In this document: piece by piece, positions 1-10,021 of the stretch | Numbering within the stretch: the first letter of the stretch is position 1 | How the letters are laid out: every line of letters begins with the position of its first letter | Source: Anaerolineales bacterium | GTDB lineage: Bacteria > Chloroflexota > Anaerolineae > Anaerolineales > Villigracilaceae | Direction: 5' to 3' | NCBI GenBank assembly: GCA_025056515.1 | Contig: JANWWB010000170.1 | Coordinates: 1-10,495 of the forward strand | DNA: 10,495 nt | Notes under the pieces: generated by a model | The model's database searches: none | What the model was told of the DNA's origin: nothing | The model's input: only the letters and a program-made list of their open reading frames with translations | Translations under genes and position numbers: made by a program

Positions 1-17
1 AGACGGTCTCCCTGGTC

Positions 18-66
18 GCGCTGCGGCACCTTCGCTAGTTAACAGCGAGGAGGGATGCCGCAGCGC
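18..66. repeat. 11-bp perfect inverted repeat (hairpin or cruciform)
   Basis: Bases 18-28 (GCGCTGCGGCA) are the exact reverse complement of bases 56-66, separated by 27 bases that contain a smaller TCGCT/AGCGA pairing (32-36 with 44-48). There is no T-run after it, so it is not a classical rho-independent terminator. It could be the end of an upstream transcription unit or part of a repeat. No gene is supported between base 1 and the FGE-domain frame. Confidence 0.5.
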
Positions 67-128
67 TTCGTTTCAAACTACTGTCCATGTCTTGGCACCA
101 CCTCCTCTTCTGTTAGGATGGCGGTCGA

Positions 129-842
129 ATGTTTGCCCCCCGACACAGGGGCGAGTATCACACAAAATACCTCAGATGTCAATGGCAAAAACCAACTCAA
201 ACTCCAGACAAAATGGGCAGCAAAAACGGCGATGACAATGAGCGCCCGGTGCATCCCGTTTATCTGGACGCCTTCTACATCGATACCTATGAGGTGACCA
301 ACGCCCTCTACCGCGCCTGTGTGCAGGCCGGCGCCTGCACCCCGCCGCACAACACCCGCGATTACGATGACGCGACCTACGCCGATCACCCGGTCGTCTA
401 TGTGGACTGGTTTCAGGCCAGCGCCTACTGCGAATGGCGCGGGGCGCGCCTGCCCACCGAGGCCGAGTGGGAGAAGGCCGCCCGCGGCACGGACGGCCGG
501 ACGTATCCGTGGGGCGAGGGAATCGACTGCGATAGAGCAAATTACTCTGGCTGCGTCGGCGGCACGACCCCGGTGGGGAAGTACCCGAGCGGCGTCAGCC
601 CGTATGGGATTTACGACCTGGCCGGCAACGTCCGGGAGTGGGTCGCAGACTGGTATGACGAAAAGTACTACGATCGGTCGCCGGCCCGCAACCCGCAGGG
701 GCCCTCGAGCGGCAGCCAACGCGTTCTGCGCGGCGGTTCGTGGAACGTCGTCGAGTACGTCGTCCGCTCCGCCCTCCGCGACAGGTTCGGACCCGGCGTC
801 AGGTGCGACAACTTCGGGTTTCGTTGTGCGCTCTCGCCGTGA
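129..842 (+). CDS. FGE-sulfatase (formylglycine-generating enzyme-like, C-type-lectin fold) domain protein; probable DGR target, N-terminus doubtful
   Basis: The domain runs from the MGS motif (residues 29-31) to the C-terminus. Family hallmarks are present: [21 protein letters not shown] near residues 38-57, [14 protein letters not shown] near 111-124, [22 protein letters not shown] near 158-175, and RGGSW at 201-205 followed by a closing GFR. The fold is shared by formylglycine-generating enzymes and by many DGR-diversified ligand-binding proteins; a truncated reverse transcriptase follows at once, so a binding role is inferred rather than sulfatase activation. The start is unclear. Family members normally have an extra strand (hydrophobic-PGG-F) before MGS, but residues 1-28 here look unlike the family. 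The ATG at 213 would begin exactly at MGS, yet neither start has a convincing ribosome-binding site. No signal peptide is visible. The 5' end has probably been lost or rearranged. Confidence 0.72.
726..842 (+). other. Putative DGR variable region at the 3' end of the FGE-domain gene
   Basis: Codons after RGGSW match the frame of DGR variable regions with this fold: W-N-(variable)-V-R-S-A-x-R-x-R-x-x-P-x-x-R-x-x-x-x-G-F-R. The family's usual Asn positions are here V207, V208, Y210, V211, L216, D218, F220, G221, V224, C226 and D227. Nearly all are NNC codons (GTC, TAC, CTC, GAC, TTC, TGC), as expected if AAC codons of a template repeat were altered only at the two adenines. The scaffold codons (CGC TCC GCC, AGG, GGG TTT CGT) contain few adenines. 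G221 (GGA) does not fit an AAC origin. No template repeat was found in the window, so adenine mutagenesis is inferred from codon pattern alone. Confidence 0.55.
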
Positions 843-880
843 TTCTGAAATTCTGGATTCTGAGATTCTGGATTTCTGAC
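841..880 (+). repeat. 15-bp tandem repeat, about 2.6 copies, after the FGE stop codon
   Basis: GATTCTGAAATTCTG (841-855) is followed by GATTCTGAGATTCTG (856-870), one base different, and by a partial copy, GATTTCTGAC (871-880). The array starts inside the TGA stop codon and lies between the variable region and the hairpin at 888-902. Confidence 0.75.
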
Positions 881-887
881 TCCCCCT

Positions 888-902
888 CCCGCCGAAGGCG
901 GG
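888..902 (+). other. GC-rich hairpin downstream of the putative variable region
   Basis: CCCGCC-GAA-GGCGGG forms a 6-bp perfect stem with a 3-base loop, 46 bases after the FGE stop. DGR variable regions are often followed by a short GC-rich hairpin or cruciform that aids retrohoming, and the position fits. It could also serve as a weak terminator: the downstream sequence contains a T-rich stretch, but not directly after the stem. Confidence 0.5.
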
Positions 903-926
903 CCGAGTTTAAAACTTTTTCAAAAA

Positions 927-1223
927 ATGGACACTTATGCTCAAATTTACAGCCTGCTCAATCCATGGTAGGCGTTTATCCAAGCCTCCCGGGGGCGGCG
1001 AAGCAGGCCGGGCGTAGCGCAGTTCGAGTACAATTTGGAAGGCGAACTGATTCGCCTGCGGGATGGATTCCAAAGCGAGACGTACCGTCCCGGAAAATAT
1101 GAGAGTTTCATTGTCCACGAACCCAAGCGGCGCAAGAGTTCAGCCACGCCCTTTCGCGACCGGGCGGTGCACCATGCCTTGATTAACGTCATTGGCCCGC
1201 CGCTGGAGCGGGGCGCGAGGTAG
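927..1223 (+). pseudogene. DGR-type reverse transcriptase, N-terminal remnant with in-frame amber
   Basis: Reading from ATG 927 gives MDTYAQIYSLLNPW, then TAG (969-971), then in the same frame AFIQASRGRRSRPGVAQFEY and on to a second TAG at 1221-1223. The post-amber part carries the N-terminal signature of DGR reverse transcriptases: (R)RGxRxRPxVAxFEYNLE, TYRPGxYxSFxVHEPKRR and ATPFRDRAVHHALxNVI, ending at PPLERGAR. It stops at about residue 98, whereas DGR enzymes are usually about 350-400 residues long. The fingers/palm core with the YxDD catalytic pair is absent, so it cannot polymerise DNA. There is no ribosome-binding site before 927. The position directly downstream of an FGE-domain gene with a variable-region-like end supports a DGR rather than a group II intron or retron. 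A TTG at 1035 permits a 62-codon frame, but this is only part of the remnant. Confidence 0.8.
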
Positions 1224-1406
1224 GGCAATCTCCGATTGGCCGTTTACATCTCCCTATACGTGGAAGTCGGCCGGAAGCCGGTTTGAGGCGGGGAGTCCAT
1301 CCCCGCTTGAGATTACACGACCACACCCGGGGCAGCGCGTGGATGCTAAACCTGTCCCAACAAGAATGGCCGAATAGCAAGACGGGTGATACTGTATAAT
1401 ATATTC
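1224..1406. other. Intergenic stretch; decayed sequence with one hairpin
   Basis: No convincing gene. In the frame of the reverse-transcriptase remnant, the bases directly after its second TAG encode GNLRLAVYISLYV. This weakly resembles the reverse-transcriptase segment IGNxTSQxFxNxYL and may be internally deleted palm sequence; it is speculative. A perfect 7-bp hairpin, GCGGGGA-GTCCA-TCCCCGC, lies at 1288-1306 and may end transcription from the DGR side. No adenine-rich copy of the FGE variable region is present. Confidence 0.35.
1395..1400 (+). promoter_or_regulatory. Consensus -10 box (TATAAT) for the HEPN/MNT pair
   Basis: A perfect TATAAT ends six bases before ATG 1407. Transcription would therefore start at or very near the A of the start codon, giving a leaderless mRNA, which fits the lack of a Shine-Dalgarno sequence. 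No good -35 box is visible 16-18 bases upstream, so the call rests on the -10 match and its position. Confidence 0.45.
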
Positions 1407-1806
1407 ATGAGCATCCGCAAGGACACCCAAAACTGGATTGCGCTGGCGAAATATGACCTAGAAACGGCGCGTCACATGCTGGCGACAGGCCGATACTTGT
1501 ACGTCATCTTCATGTGTCACCTGGCTTTGGGAGAGAATGCTCAAAGCGCATGTGACCGAAGTCACACAGTCCATTCCGCTGAAAACCCACGATTTGATTT
1601 ACCTGGTCAAAAAGTCCATGTTGGAATTGCCGCCCGCTCACCTTGATTTTATCGGTAAAATCAACACGGCCAGCATCCCCACCCGTTACCCGGATGACTT
1701 GCAACGTGCGCTGCAAGAGTACCCTGAACCGGTGGCGCGGGATTGTTTGAAACAGACGGAAGAGGTAGTCGAATGGCTCAGACACCACTCGAACTTAAAC
1801 AAATAA
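1407..1806 (+). pseudogene. HEPN-domain toxin (HepT-like), frameshifted
   Basis: Two overlapping frames together encode one HEPN protein of about 132 residues. The first half (MSIRKDTQNWIALAKYDLET and on to CHLAL) is in the frame of ATG 1407. The second half (MLKAHVTEV, then KTHDLIYLVKK, then [15 protein letters not shown]) is in the next frame and ends at 1806. Removing one G from the GGG at 1529-1531 restores CHLALERMLKAHV, the usual HEPN helix. HEPN proteins of this class are toxins, often ribonucleases, neutralised by a partner MNT nucleotidyltransferase, and that partner overlaps this gene's 3' end. The break is either a real inactivating mutation or a sequencing error in a short homopolymer. 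As written, translation from 1407 ends at 1646 with an unrelated tail. An upstream in-frame ATG at 1386 lies before the -10 box and is unlikely. Confidence 0.8.
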
Positions 1807-2099
1807 TCCAACGCTTCTGTACCCAACTGGAAAGCATGGGCATCCATCCCGAAAAAGTGCTGCTCTACGGCTCGCAGGCGGCAGGCACATCGCAGGAAGG
1901 CAGCGATATTGACCTGATTGTCATTTCCAGCGATTGGTCAAACTACAATCAACGTGAAAGGCTCGAAATCCTGGGCGTGGCCGCGGCGCGTATTTTGGAA
2001 CCCATCCAGGCGCAGGGCTTCACTCCTTCCGAAATTAGCGGAAACCAAATCATGCCTTTTTGGGCGCAGGTGCTGAAGGAACAGGCTGTTGCAGTCTGA
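1773..2099 (+). CDS. MNT-type minimal nucleotidyltransferase (MntA-like antitoxin)
   Basis: The 108-residue product has the polymerase-beta nucleotidyltransferase signature: LLYGSQAAG near residues 30-38, followed by SDIDLIVIS near 44-52, giving the G-S and D-x-D metal-binding elements. In HEPN/MNT systems this small enzyme is the antitoxin; characterised MntA proteins AMPylate the HEPN toxin on a tyrosine. The start at 1773 is preferred over an in-frame ATG at 1743 because it has an AGAGG ribosome-binding site (1761-1765) with 7-base spacing and gives the normal family N-terminus. It overlaps the HEPN reading frame by 34 bases, implying co-transcription and coupled translation. It appears intact while its toxin is frameshifted, consistent with the antitoxin outlasting a dead toxin. 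Confidence 0.85.
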
Positions 2100-2212: not shown

Positions 2213-5194
2213 ATGACCAAATCCACCTTCCAAGAAATCATCCTTAAACTCCAAAACTATTGGGCAGAGCGTGGCTGCCTCATCTGGCAACCTTACTACA
2301 CGCAGGTCGGCGCAGGGACGATGAACCCGGCCACCTTCTTGCGCGTCCTTGGCCCGGAACCGTGGAATGTCGCCTATGTCGAACCTTCCGTCCGCCCCGA
2401 TGACGGGCGCTACGGCGAGAACCCCAACCGCTTCCAGGTGCACTACCAGTACCAGGTCATCCTCAAGCCCGACCCAGGCAACCCGCAAGAACTCTATCTC
2501 GATTCGCTCAAAGCCCTCGGCATCGACCTACGCCAGCATGACATTCGCTTTGTGGAAGATAACTGGGAACAGCCTGCTATCTCGGCCTGGGGCTTAGGTT
2601 GGGAGGTCTGGCTCGATGGGCAGGAAATCACCCAGTTCACCTACTTCCAACAAATGGGTGGTGTCACGCTCGACCCTGTCTCGGTGGAACTCACGTATGG
2701 CCTAGAGCGTATTCTCATCGCCCTCAACAACGCCAAAGCCATTTGGGATGAACCCTGGAACGAAGAGGTCACCTACGGTGAGATTCGCCGCCGCGAGGAG
2801 TTCGAGCACTCGAAGTATTACTTTGAGATTGCTGACATCGAGCGCGCTCGCCATATGTATGATCTGTTTGCCGCCGAAGCCGAGGCCTGCTTGGAGCGAG
2901 GGCTTGTCCTCCCTGCCCATGACTATGTCTTGAAGTGCTCACATACCTTCAACATCCTGGATACGCGCGGTGCAATCAGCGTAGCCGAACGTCAGGCTTT
3001 CTTCCGACAAATGCGTGCCCTGGCACGTCGCGTTGCTGAGGCTTATCTGGAACAACGCGAAAAACTCGGTCATCCCTTGCTTAAGGTAGTAGACCGTGCG
3101 GCAAAGACCGTGCAAGCCAAACCCCCGATTGTCGATCATCCCGCGTCGTTTCTGTTGGAGATCGGTGTTGAAGAATTGCCCGCCGCCGACGTAGACGCCG
3201 CTCAAGAACAACTTGCCGCCCGAGTCCCCTCCCTGCTCGATGAACTATATCTCGCCCACGGCGGCGTGCGGGTCGCTGCGACCCCGCGCCGGCTTGCCGT
3301 TTTCGTTGAGGCGCTTTCTCCCCGTCAGCCCGACCGCGAAACCCTCGTCAAAGGCCCTCCCGCCGACAAAGCCCTCCTCGTCGATCAAGAGAATAATGTG
3401 ACCTATACGCCTGCTGCCATAGGTTTCGCCAAAAAGAACGGTGTAGACGTGAACGACCTACAAGTTCGGGAAGAAGGTGGCGGCAAATACGTCTTCGCCG
3501 TGGTCAAACAGACTGGACGACCGACGCCCGAAGTCTTGGCTGAGGCGCTCCCCAAACTGATAGCCGAACTCAAGTTCGAGAAAACTATGCGATGGAACGA
3601 GTCGGGTGTCTTCTTCCCGCGTCCTATCCGCTGGCTGGTTGCCCTCTTTGGCGAAACGGTTATCCCCTTTGCGTATGCCGGCGTCGTCTCCAGCAACGTC
3701 ACACGCGGTTTGCGCCCCTACGACTCGCCTGAAATTGTCATCCCGTCTGCTGATCGCTACTTTGATCTCCTGCGCGAAGCCGGCATTGTCCTCGATAAGG
3801 AAGAGCGCAAGGCTTTGATTGTCGAGCAAGCGCGCAGAGCAGCGACCTTCGTGCAAGGCGAAGTGCTGTTGGACGAAGATGTACTAAGCGAAGTAGCCAA
3901 TCTGGTCGAGAAACCGACTGCTGTCCTGGGCAGTTTCGACCCCGAGTTCCTACAACTGCCGCGTGATGTGCTGATTTCTGTCATGAAAAAGCATCAACGG
4001 TACTTTCCGATCACCTCTCGCGAAGGGGGGGAGAGCCTCCTCCCGTATTTCATCGCCATCCGAAACGGCGACGATTTGCACCTTGACCTCGTCCGCCAGG
4101 GCAACGAACATGTCCTCTCGGCCCGCTTTGCCGATGCCAATTACTTCGTCCGTGAAGACCTGAAAGTCCGATTGGAAGATTTTCGCCCGAAATTAGCCGA
4201 CCTCACCTTTCATACCAAACTCGGTTCGATGCTTGATAAATCCGAGCGCATGTTGAGCCTCTCTGAACCGATTGCAGACATGCTTCATCTTTCGGAGGCA
4301 GAACGGAATCATCTTAAACGTGCGACCTATCTGGCCAAAGCCGACCTGGCGACTCAAATGGTCACCGAGATGACTTCGTTGCAAGGGAGGATAGGGCGCG
4401 AGTATGCTCTTCATTCCGGCGAACGATCTGAAGTTGCCGAAGCAATTGGCGAGCAATATCGTCTCGTCCCTCGAACGCTGCTTGGCCTTGCACTAGCGTT
4501 GATCGACCGACTGGATTCGCTGGTTGGGTTGTTTGCGGTTGGAGCTGCGCCCACCAGCACGAAGGACCCCTTTGGCTTGCGTCGCGCTGCCATCGGCATC
4601 GTTCAACCTCTCATCGAGCACGATGTAACCTTTGACCTTGTTGAAGCTGTCAAACAGGCTGCCTTCCTCCAACCCGTTGAGGTCACTGAAAAAACACAGG
4701 CGCAAATTCTAGAATTTCTCACAGGGCGGCTGAATGTCTTGCTGCGAGAAATGGGCTATCGCTACGATGTGGTGGATGCCGTCCTAGCAGAGCAATTTGC
4801 TAACCCAGCAGGAGCACGACATGCGGTGGAGCAATTACAAGCCTGGGTCTTACGTCCGGATTGGGGTACCATTCTGCCCGCCTATGCCCGTTGTGTTCGT
4901 ATTCTCAAGACGGCCGACATCCTTCCACAGACTGTAGAAGAAAGCCGTTTGGTGGAGCAAGAGGAAAAAGCATTGTACGATACAATCTGCTCGACTGTCC
5001 AAAAACCGCCGTCAGACATCAACGAATTCTTAGAGAAGCTTGTCGCTCTCATTCCCGCTATCAACACCTTCTTTGATAAAGTCTTGGTCATGGCTGAAGA
5101 CGAGGCTCTACGTCGTAACCGCTTAGCGCTGGTTGGTCACGTTGCGTCGTTAGCGCGCGGCCTGGCCGATTTAAGTAAATTAGAAGGCTTTTAG
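2213..5194 (+). CDS. glyQS: Glycyl-tRNA synthetase, fused alpha-beta chain
   Basis: This 993-residue enzyme charges tRNA-Gly with glycine in the cytoplasm. Residues 1 to about 300 are the alpha (GlyQ) catalytic subunit: [55 protein letters not shown] and LTYGLERI. From about residue 310 ([12 protein letters not shown]) the chain continues as the beta (GlyS) subunit, with [17 protein letters not shown], the [20 protein letters not shown] segment near 709-728, and a C-terminal DALR-like anticodon-binding helix bundle ending [20 protein letters not shown]. Most bacteria with this heterotetrameric type encode alpha and beta separately; fusion occurs in chlamydiae, Chloroflexota and some others. 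ATG 2213 is chosen because the alpha-subunit homology starts there; the frame is open back to 2060, but the extra residues are unlike the family and would overlap the MNT gene. The ribosome-binding site is weak (GGAA at 2203-2206). Confidence 0.96.
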
Positions 5195-7346: not shown

Positions 7347-8102
7347 TCAAGCCGACTTTCGATGTCGTAGCCGGTACAATCGTTCTCGCCAAGCTAGGCG
7401 GAGAGTCTCACGTATGGTTTTGGCGACCTTCATCTTGCTCTTGCCGATTTTGTTTTCATAATGCAAGACAAGTGGGACTTCGGTCATGATCGCGTTCAGA
7501 CGATCGAGTTTGAGCAGGATGTCTACCATGCAGCTGAAACCGGATTGGCTAATGAAATCCTCCCCCCAGCGCTCAAAGGCGCGGCGGAGAATCTCGACCC
7601 GATAGGCGCGGTAACCGCAGCTATAGTCACGCACGCCGCGGATAGGGAGTAGAATCTGAAATAGCCAGCGCATGCCCGCGCTAAGAAACTCTCGCCACGG
7701 CGAAAGACCGACTACCCGTGCCCCAGGCTGGTAACGAGAGGCAATCACAACATCGTTTCCACCTTCTAGAGTAGAGATCATGCGCGGTAACAAGCCTGGG
7801 GTATGCGTGTTATCCGCATCCATGGTCACGATGATGTCATCGGGGTTGGCCAGCTCCAGTGCGCGCAGCAAACCGGTTTTGATGGCTTCACCGAGGCCGC
7901 GGTTGTGTGGATGTTGCACCAGGAGCGTATGTTCATCTTCCAAGGCGCGCACGCGGGCGGCGGTGTCGTCGGCGCTGCCGTCGTCCACCACAATCACTTT
8001 AACCGGCTCGAGAAACCTTCGACGAGCCACGGCGCGGATTTGCTCAATCAATGGCGTAATGACCTCGGCTTCATTATATGCAGGAAGAACGACAAAGATC
8101 AT
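7347..8102 (-). CDS. Family 2 glycosyltransferase, polyprenol-phosphate sugar transferase-like (DPM1-like)
   Basis: The 251-residue product has the GT2 fold motifs in order: VVLPAYNEAE (4-13), VIVVDDGSADDT (36-47), HNRGLGEAIKTGL (66-78), the metal-binding VTMDADNTH (92-100), and VIASRYQPGA (119-128). GVRDYSCGYRAYR (156-168) corresponds to the acceptor-side motif of dolichyl/undecaprenyl-phosphate mannosyl- or glucosyltransferases. KIGKSKM near 218-224 matches the late basic motif of that group. It lacks a C-terminal pair of membrane helices, so it is probably a soluble or peripheral membrane enzyme loading a sugar onto a polyprenyl phosphate. Its ATG overlaps the stop of the upstream gene by four bases (ATGA at 8099-8102), a sign of translational coupling. 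Confidence 0.9.
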   Translation of the reverse strand: MIFVVLPAYNEAEVITPLIEQIRAVARRRFLEPVKVIVVDDGSADDTAARVRALEDEHTLLVQHPHNRGLGEAIKTGLLRALELANPDDIIVTMDADNTHTPGLLPRMISTLEGGNDVVIASRYQPGARVVGLSPWREFLSAGMRWLFQILLPIRGVRDYSCGYRAYRVEILRRAFERWGEDFISQSGFSCMVDILLKLDRLNAIMTEVPLVLHYENKIGKSKMKVAKTIRETLRLAWRERLYRLRHRKSA

Positions 8103-9424
8103 GGCGTGGTCCTCTGTAACTCCTCCATATAGTTTCGGATGGTCGGCACAGCGGTCAATTTCTCGTAAAAGAAGTTGTTAATAATGTTGATTAGCTCGGC
8201 ACGCGCTGCCTCTGCCTCGGCGTTTAGTCCCGTTCCTGTTTGTGCCTGGTCAAGGGTGCGACGCAATTTCAGCAGATGGCGCACCACGGCGGCTTCTTGG
8301 TCGCCCTCGAGGACGCGGATAACGGCTAGAATCAACTCGTCCGCCTGCTGACGTACACTCTCCATGTCGATGCTCGTTCCGGCCTGACAGCAATCATCCA
8401 AGGTGCGAATCAGCGACCAGACTTGATACAACATCGAAGCCGGTTCGTCGAATAATTCGCGCAGGAACGCCGCTTCTTGGTAGCGGCCTGTCAGGCGAAA
8501 GATATTGTACATGCGTTTGGCCGCTTTGCCGTAATTGATGTCTTTGGTCAGATATTTACGTACCTCATTGGTTAATTGTTCCACATACTCATCGAGAGCG
8601 TTGGCCGAAACGTGTTGGGCAAGTTTGGCGAAAATCGGCACCGATTCAGCCTCAAGATAGACCTCTTGGAAATACGGGTCCAGGTATCCATCGAGCGGGG
8701 TGATGGTCCCGTCGGGCGCCTGCCAGGTGACATCGAGCATGTTGCTGGCGCTTGCCAGTTGACCTCTCACCGGGTCGGCCACGACCCAATCGAGCTTACA
8801 CCAGCCTGGGTTGGCCGATACCTGCTCCCAGGTGATGACGACCGGTTGTCCGCTTGGGGTCAGCGCCTCGATCTTTCCGGCACAGACCTCTTCTGCTGTC
8901 CAGGAAATCGGACTACCTTTCGGACAGCGTCGTCCACTCTTAATCACCTCTTGCGGATAGGAGCCAAATTTCACCTCGATGAACTGATAGGTCGGTCCGT
9001 GTAGGGTATCAAGGATTTTTTGGCGCATAAGGTCGGCTAGAATGAAGCAGGCCTCCTCACGCGTGGCGGCGAGGATGTTGATGCGTTCAAAGTAGTCGGC
9101 ATCCCCTGGGTAAGTTTGAATCTTGGATTGTGCCGAGGAACCAGAAAGCGCCAACGCTGTTTCAACTTTTCCGGGAATATCCTTGAATTCCACTAACCGA
9201 CCGATACGGCGAAAATGCTCCAGGTCGGTCGGACTGAAATCGAGCATGGTGATGCGATGACCGAAGACGCCCACGCGGTCATCGATCACAACCTCCTCGC
9301 CTTGTGAAACAGCCAAGGCAGTCAACCATTGGAGCGCCTCAGCCTCGTCGAGTTCAATGCCTAAGCGTCGTGCCGATTCGACGATGCGCCTCAAATCATC
9401 TGGAGGGGAAGTGGAACAATTCAT
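8099..9424 (-). CDS. Uncharacterised 441-residue protein with a nucleotidyltransferase-like signature
   Basis: I do not recognise a named family. Residues 93-111 read LSGSSAQSKIQTYPGDADY. This fits the polymerase-beta-type nucleotidyltransferase pattern of Gly-Ser on a turn, 10-13 residues, then D-x-D (G94-S95, D108, D110). FIEVKFG (148-154) and KLDWV (210-214, D212) are candidates for the strand carrying the third acidic residue. From about 265 to the end the protein is predicted helical, with a basic stretch, KAAKRMYNIFRLTGRY (300-315), and HLLKLRRTLDQ. There are no membrane segments or signal peptide. The start is firm: AGGAG (CTCCT at 9431-9435 on the + strand) lies 6 bases before ATG 9424. 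It is coupled to the glycosyltransferase downstream by an ATGA overlap. Function, substrate and even the fold remain inference. Confidence 0.8.
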   Translation of the reverse strand: MNCSTSPPDDLRRIVESARRLGIELDEAEALQWLTALAVSQGEEVVIDDRVGVFGHRITMLDFSPTDLEHFRRIGRLVEFKDIPGKVETALALSGSSAQSKIQTYPGDADYFERINILAATREEACFILADLMRQKILDTLHGPTYQFIEVKFGSYPQEVIKSGRRCPKGSPISWTAEEVCAGKIEALTPSGQPVVITWEQVSANPGWCKLDWVVADPVRGQLASASNMLDVTWQAPDGTITPLDGYLDPYFQEVYLEAESVPIFAKLAQHVSANALDEYVEQLTNEVRKYLTKDINYGKAAKRMYNIFRLTGRYQEAAFLRELFDEPASMLYQVWSLIRTLDDCCQAGTSIDMESVRQQADELILAVIRVLEGDQEAAVVRHLLKLRRTLDQAQTGTGLNAEAEAARAELINIINNFFYEKLTAVPTIRNYMEELQRTTP

Positions 9425-9472: not shown

Positions 9473-10021
9473 TTAGACCAGGTCAGGCAGGCGCGTCTGG
9501 GCTTTCGGCAATGGACAGCGGAAAAGTTCTGCTTGCACAAGCGCGTCTTGCCGGGCATTGTGACTCAACACCATGTCCCGACCGCAGTAACGAGCGACCT
9601 TGGAGAGGCCGGTCTCTTGCCAAGAGATACCGCTCAAGGCCATATCAAAGGTTTGAATGTCCAGCGCTGCGTGTCCAAAGGGATTGCGCCCCAAGTAACG
9701 ATGAACATACTCTGTGACAAACATCCAATCGAACCCAGCATTGAACGCTACGAAGACGGGGCGGTGCAAACCCGCAACTTGTTCCACCCTCGTTGCAAAC
9801 CGGTGCATGGTCTCCTCAGCCGGAAAGCCTTCGCGTGTCAATCTTTTGAGCGAGAGACCGCTGATTCGCCAGGCAGCTTCGGGAACACTGTGCCGGTCTG
9901 GGCGCAATTCCATGTAAAACCTCTCTTGTGGGCGAAAGACCTCGCAAGCGCCAATCGCAAGCAAAGCATATTGTCCAGGTGTAGGACTGGCAGTCTCGAC
10001 ATCTACAGAGATACATGTGCT
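9473..10021 (-). CDS. DnaQ-like DEDDh 3'-5' exonuclease; no usable start codon for full domain
   Basis: The frame encodes STCISVDVETASPTPGQYAL and continues to the end at 9473. All three exonuclease motifs are present: Exo I VDVET (D and E), Exo II FNAGFDWMF, and Exo III HNARQDALVQAEL (H and D). This marks a DEDDh 3'-5' exonuclease, related to proofreading, RNase T or oligoribonuclease-type enzymes. The 5' end is odd. A TAG at 10022-10024 closes the frame just upstream, and no ATG, GTG or TTG occurs before the catalytic VDVET. The first possible start, TTG at 9964, would lose the two Exo I acidic residues. A palindromic repeat lies 19 bases upstream of the TAG, and a good ribosome-binding site lies beyond it, so the original start was probably displaced by insertion. 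It may be a pseudogene. It precedes the 441-residue gene by 48 bases. Confidence 0.75.
   Translation of the reverse strand, partial: STCISVDVETASPTPGQYALLAIGACEVFRPQERFYMELRPDRHSVPEAAWRISGLSLKRLTREGFPAEETMHRFATRVEQVAGLHRPVFVAFNAGFDWMFVTEYVHRYLGRNPFGHAALDIQTFDMALSGISWQETGLSKVARYCGRDMVLSHNARQDALVQAELFRCPLPKAQTRLPDLV

Follow-up and report, generated by a model that had tools for sequence, protein, structure and literature searches.

A probable remnant of a diversity-generating retroelement behind an FGE-fold gene in an Anaerolineales genome

The window analysed here is the whole of contig C408 (10,495 bases), part of an Anaerolineales assembly of 2.34 Mb in 442 contigs that is 83.75% complete. 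Its proximal part holds a gene with an FGE-sulfatase domain, a spacer with a TTCTG array and a hairpin, and the 5' fragment of a reverse transcriptase (RT) resembling those of diversity-generating retroelements (DGRs) (Table 1). The first 102 bases are probably the overlap of neighbouring contigs, and otherwise a repeat; the gene ahead of the matching bases in contig C242 is presumably phosphofructokinase-like. Beyond the RT fragment, the HEPN gene beside the MNT-type nucleotidyltransferase gene is split over two frames (1407-1806), and a related HEPN gene in genome G003 (L109 3707-4094) is also split, apparently elsewhere. Positions 2213-5194 encode a fused glycyl-tRNA synthetase (glyS), with alpha and beta domains in one chain of 993 residues. 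The two minus-strand open reading frames (ORFs) at 8099-9424 and 9473-9964 have no Pfam match at 0.001, and the latter reads by eye as what we take to be a 3'-5' exonuclease.

Table 1. Features of the window, with RT pieces and array-associated genes of other genomes of the genus
Feature	Location	Strand	Remarks
Contig end	1..102	+	90% identity to the final 102 bases of contig C242, same assembly, same orientation
Long inverted repeat	18-66		Within the contig end; z -3.8 when 1-110 is folded as DNA
5' extension of the FGE ORF, lacking FGE homology	129..212	+	Listed alignments start at residue 25 or later
FGE-sulfatase (C-type-lectin fold) domain, putative DGR target protein, 209 aa	213..842	+	PF03781, 4.6e-56
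Variable-region-like C-terminus	720..839	+	24 core codons at 744-815; NNC at 10/10 template-Asn columns
(TTCTG)n array, 5 copies	843..878	+	Common to variable-region flanks of relatives' DGRs
GC-rich hairpin CCCGCC-GAA-GGCGGG	888..902	.	After the variable region; 6-bp stem, 3-nt loop
5' fragment of a putative DGR reverse transcriptase	927..1223	+	Homology 927-1211; in-frame stop 969-971; ORF ends 1223
Non-coding stretch past the end of RT homology	1220..1312	+	Resembles DNA downstream of the G027 FGE gene
HEPN (split over two frames) and MNT-type nucleotidyltransferase	1407..2099	+	PF05168, PF01909; outside the DGR
G003, RT core piece	Positions 176-249		Follows an FGE gene that has a TTCTG array
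G002:C7, N-terminal RT stump in two frames			Directly behind an FGE gene with CTCTG units
G002:C6, 31-position RT piece			Near an array
G007:C363, C-terminal RT piece			Array on one side, Avd gene (3.1e-29) on the other
G007:C143, N-terminal RT piece			At a contig end, beside an array
L229 (G004:C31), Avd-like/S23 gene	Arrays within 329-714, gene 791-1102 (contig coordinates)
L230 (G005:C88), Avd-like/S23 gene	Array 14434-14466, gene 14066-14362 (contig coordinates)

The ORF at 129-842 scores the FGE-sulfatase family at 4.6e-56 and reaches no NCBIfam cut-off, the assignment being by fold match alone. Among the matches listed, alignments to other genomes begin at ORF residue 25 or later, with the best ones at 28. 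Thus, bases 129 to ~210 probably lie outside the FGE domain, and the gene call P0001 (209 aa) agrees with a start at 213. A blastn comparison of bases 1-215 with 73 loci of relatives (L039-L113 less two) gave no match. Together with the alignment starts, this places the beginning of the domain at ~210-213 and indicates that an upstream part of the target is missing. The corresponding upstream part is a TIR domain in two close relatives (G012 and G026) and an AAA-TPR region in a third (G027). By this comparison, the FGE gene appears truncated at its 5' end as well, with the upstream domains of the target protein lost here. The closest FGE domain found is that of G027 (79% identical), and FGE matches occur in 59 of 61 genomes, own included. 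Identities of 51-68% were found for the 119 listed homologues other than the query, from a search confined to proteins of 0.55-1.75 times the query length, in which longer fusions were never candidates; the best 80 of 584 FGE loci from a wider contig scan, from which the own record was possibly left out, are 44-66% identical and come from many phyla. The same assembly carries a second FGE gene, a protein kinase-FGE fusion (L002 502-2184, G000:C351), and TCTG is absent from the 90 nt that follow this gene.

The C-terminal tail of the FGE protein looks like a variable region (VR) written by a DGR. Template-Asn columns were defined as those with Asn in at least four of seven template repeats (TRs) recovered as peptides, these seven coming from 16 known repeats. 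All ten window codons at such columns have the form NNC, compared with 92 of the 185 codons ending in C in the remainder of the gene (Fisher p 0.0012), NNC codons being common in GC-rich genes; eight of the ten no longer encode Asn. An earlier note on this DNA had named, as the contrary case, an FGE gene with the same C-terminus in related genomes. Comparison with G027 argues against such a fixed tail, showing changed residues in 18 of 40 C-terminal codons versus 27 of 170 body codons. With G026 as the third sequence, changes unique to the window have N/S counts of 12/26 in the body and 11/3 in the VR, for a neutral expectation of about 3. Changes unique to G027 number 20/17 and 7/5, so that the contrast between body and VR is weak or not seen on that branch. 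Across the 119 listed homologues and the window, columns from RVLRGG onwards have a mean entropy of 1.99 bits and columns 31-169 one of 1.24 bits, some few body columns matching VR columns in variability. As for population variants of the VR, the listed matches of 0.55-1.75 times the query length include no close homologue.

The RT homology begins with the ATG at 927, 84 bases after the FGE stop codon (842), and extends further 5' than the ORF at 1035. An RT model built from 14 relatives' enzymes and the window piece itself matches 927-1211 at E 2.0e-39 with a single in-frame TAG (969-971). The 83-residue piece encoded by 972-1220 matches PHROG 1423 (Reverse transcriptase) at 6.1e-20 and only one distinct PDB sequence at E<=1 (8ub7, 'Reverse transcriptase', 3.1e-11), which we take to be the BPP-1 DGR enzyme. 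Neither Pfam nor NCBIfam gave a match to the piece at E<=1. It is about 71-73% identical to the enzyme of G012 (L039) and aligns with 14 enzymes, the majority of which come from loci that carry TR/VR pairs. The whole homology spans model positions 5-99 of 351; thus, the catalytic YxDD core is absent. These results agree with the earlier note, which had described an FGE gene followed 84 bases later by the N-terminus of a DGR RT without its polymerase core, and the RT motifs that it quoted are present in the fragment. A preferred end point for RT stumps was considered and rejected, since the ends differ between loci (residue ~66 in G002, ~90 in G012:C8, ~99 in G107, ~102 in the window and ~119 in G094); N-terminal stumps are over-represented in this set because the search query was N-terminal. 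In L018 and L035, a frameshift makes the RT frame short while the remainder of the enzyme persists.

A search with the RT piece gave matches in 38 of 150 genomes, own included. The best outside match, in G012, is a near-complete enzyme with YVDD lying 85 bases behind a TIR-FGE gene; that contig stops 102 bases past the RT frame, and no TR was seen there. In all, 50 loci and the window were scanned for pairs of repeats with mismatches at adenines of one member. Pairs with adenine-specific changes were recovered from 16 of the 29 RT loci fetched (L010-L038, out of 55 outside matches), with none in the G012 locus or the window. The order of the elements is VR-RT-TR in 11 of the paired loci and VR-TR-RT in five; an Avd-like frame separates VR from TR in four of the latter (L011, L013, L019 and L025). 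The frame of L013 is only 51 residues long, and the product of L011 scores PF22296. A group II intron or retron origin, which the earlier note had set out as the contrary case, does not fit these results. The TR/VR pairs of the related loci, the single PDB match and the PADLOC scores (1.3e-8 for the generic RT model versus 0.0022 for the sole matching DRT model) all place the fragment, by homology, in the DGR clade.

The spacer between the FGE gene and the RT fragment resembles those of the related loci. The 90 nt after the VR contain 2-7 TCTG units in the 16 paired loci (at least two in 16/16 and at least three in 13/16), compared with at least three in 0.7% of random 90-mers from the same loci. 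No comparable array was noticed behind the TRs, where only CTG was counted (0-4 per 80 nt). Among FGE genes without a local RT, three TCTG units follow those of G027 and G020 (L113), two that of G026, one that of G017 and none that of G002:C2. The array as a general FGE feature was rejected, as at least three units occur in only three of 79 loci with at least 100 bases past the FGE match, drawn from the best 80 of the 584; L182, the sole locus of the 79 with a DGR-like RT, has two. However, an RT piece adjoins the array in only five of 22 genus contigs with an array match, a point against reading the array as an exclusive DGR mark. Of the 17 remaining contigs, 14 belong to G004, G005 and G010 and carry largely TTCTGCC-type heptamer repeats. 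Pairing of the template RNA spacer (CAGAA) with the array was dropped, as loci with a different template spacer, such as L024 and L015, keep TTCTG- or CCTG/TCTG-type units and no covariation was seen by eye. Avd-like/S23 four-helix-bundle genes adjoin TTCTG-heptamer arrays in two of the four congener loci viewed (L229-L232).

In the G012 hairpin (CTCGCC-GAA-GGCGAG), one pair is altered on both sides and pairing is kept. Stems of the form C(C/T)CGCC-G(T)AA-GGCG(G/A)G are present in G012 and six of the 16 paired loci (L022, L028, L032, L033, L036 and L037). Most of the remaining paired loci have another GC-rich hairpin; that of L011 is AT-rich or weak only, and L019 and L024 have none of at least 6 bp. 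When the entire stretch 843-930 is folded, the structure is not significant (z -0.91).

RT homology stops at 1211, and DNA resembling that behind the G027 FGE gene begins at 1220. Local alignment of this stretch with G027 scored 54, the best of 500 mononucleotide shuffles reaching 36, and G027 has no RT behind its FGE gene at the matching stretch. The same alignment test against G026, G002 and G003 showed no similarity. As in the window, glyS is preceded by an FGE gene in G027, G026, G002 and G017. None was seen in eight other congener glyS stretches (L095-L102), several of which are cut by contig ends, so that positional orthology within the genus is tentative. The DNA upstream of glyS resembles a turnover spot, with FGE genes of differing N-terminal domains; in G017, the start of glyS is present a second time (L111 1881-2000), and transposase-like frames were noted by eye.

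These comparisons bear on two further explanations. The stump might have come from an intact locus that was joined to the HEPN/glyS region by mis-assembly, as the assembly is a metagenome-assembled genome of short contigs with a repeat or overlap at the end of this one. However, the G027-like DNA after the stump, the FGE genes upstream of glyS in the four relatives, the in-frame stop inside the stump and the different broken pieces in congeners make such an artefact highly improbable. Just as hard to credit is an ordinary fixed FGE-fold gene lying by chance beside an unrelated RT scrap. The abundance of FGE genes would favour such a coincidence, as would the G026, G027 and G017 genes upstream of glyS without a local RT, whereas a similar spacing, array and hairpin link FGE to RT in G012 and in intact DGRs, and the tail carries the NNC signature and is on average more variable than the body among homologues.

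The machinery missing from the window was sought in the rest of the assembly. The RVT_1 profile (PF00078) found no match, a blank that is informative because the same profile detects the near-complete G012 enzyme at 3e-16, and no second RT piece was found. A blastn search with 700-960 for a TR gave, besides the self match, five matches at E 0.28 or weaker. Two pattern matches were rejected as TRs, as they lie in genes read as an aminotransferase and a superoxide dismutase. A search with L011 508-837 found no clear Avd in the genome, the best match being a weak Avd/S23-like one at E 0.0036; G007 alone in the genus has a clear Avd. The earlier note had reported the lack of a TR, which these searches bear out for window and assembly alike, and had left two readings side by side, fixation after decay of the enzyme and service by another DGR of the same genome. 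The results favour the former. That the orphan target continues to be diversified in trans, by a DGR missed in the assembly, is unlikely but retains some weight because the assembly is 84% complete. Such service would fit a body under purifying selection next to a VR rich in replacements, and the retention of VR, array and hairpin; in Thiohalocapsa, loci with no RT nearby are reported to be diversified in trans (PMC10907252). However, the assembly offers no other RT, TR or clear Avd, an intact DGR enzyme was seen in none of the ten congeners, and neither codon patterns nor N/S contrasts date the last diversification.

Across the genus (11 genomes with the present one), the RT model matched in five and revealed no intact DGR enzyme. 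Six broken loci were found in four genomes, the window included, and five of them lie beside a TTCTG-type array (Table 1). The match in the fifth genome (G005:C213) is distant, with 33% identity, and is probably another kind of RT. Hypervariable loci assemble badly. Since this difficulty may hide intact elements, and since the contig end may explain the G007:C143 piece, repeated decay in the genus is something we infer from the series of pieces.

Taken together, the evidence supports the window as a degenerate DGR locus whose target was frozen after its DGR was deleted, with a probability of roughly 0.8. The remnant reading of the earlier note thus stands, but it had missed the 5' truncation of the FGE gene, the spacer array and the hairpin. 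The ancestral target would have had an upstream effector or signalling part fused to the C-terminal FGE-fold binding domain. It would have been followed by the VR flank with array and hairpin, the RT and the TR, the commonest order among relatives. In copying the template RNA, the RT would have placed random bases across from adenines, and the resulting cDNA would have taken the place of the VR, turning AAC codons into NNC. Adenine-directed copying and VR replacement are established for BPP-1, and we infer the same mechanism here. Later, the RT core and any TR and Avd would have disappeared, possibly in one deletion, from the DNA beyond RT residue ~100, and the upstream part of the FGE gene would have been lost as well. 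The present VR would then be a frozen read-out of the last diversification; the TR that wrote it was not found in the 83.75% complete assembly.

DGRs are thought to make sensor repertoires in bacteria, and to our knowledge their fate after loss of the machinery is little studied. A genus with several broken DGRs and retained targets allows one to ask whether a useful binding variant is fixed. The array is the least explained part of the locus, and no paper on it was found in the open-licence PMC literature, judged by title and abstract start; a link between Avd-type proteins and the TTCTG repeat is possible. It is conceivable, though doubtful, that the array is a new target-recognition element of the DGRs of this order, perhaps read by Avd, and a scar marking frozen or trans-acting targets after loss of the enzyme. 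If so, the genus would display, as a natural series, the repeated freezing of a diversifying sensor repertoire. As a conserved element behind the VR, the array provides a handle for finding orphan targets and a candidate for target-site recognition. The metagenome survey of PMC8144416, by its own account, cannot see remote targets.

The literature on degenerate DGR loci sets the locus in context. Such loci, in which the RT or TR is damaged or absent, are described in the cited part of PMC10907252, as are FGE/CLec targets linked to conflict proteins of the TIR and NTPase kinds. By that account, the locus is ordinary as a kind. No paper on DGR variable regions in Anaerolineae was found in the open-licence PMC literature. 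The Thiohalocapsa PB-PSB1 loci (Dore et al. 2024, PMC10907252), as described in that part, resemble the window in their C-terminal CLec/FGE VR targets and missing or broken RT or TR. However, PB-PSB1 retains intact DGRs, maybe acting in trans, and its VRs vary in situ, whereas no intact machinery was found here. Intact DGRs of the same order (G022 L033/L046, G020 L022, G050 L037 and others) retain an RT core with YVDD and a TR, whereas the window is without both and its target is without the 5' part; they share with it the FGE-type C-terminal VR, the TTCTG-rich flank, the hairpin and an RT start close behind. The DGR of Bordetella phage BPP-1 has an alignable RT N-terminus (3.1e-11, with 8ub7 taken as its enzyme) and likewise a hairpin 3' of the VR. 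The window differs from it in its cellular setting, its target, its shorter stem with a 3-nt loop and the TTCTG array between VR and hairpin. In phage DGRs, according to the cited part of PMC3240598, a hairpin 3' of the VR is required for efficient homing and has a stem of 7-10 bp with a 4-nt GRNA loop; the hairpin of the window, with 6 bp and a 3-nt loop, falls outside this rule.
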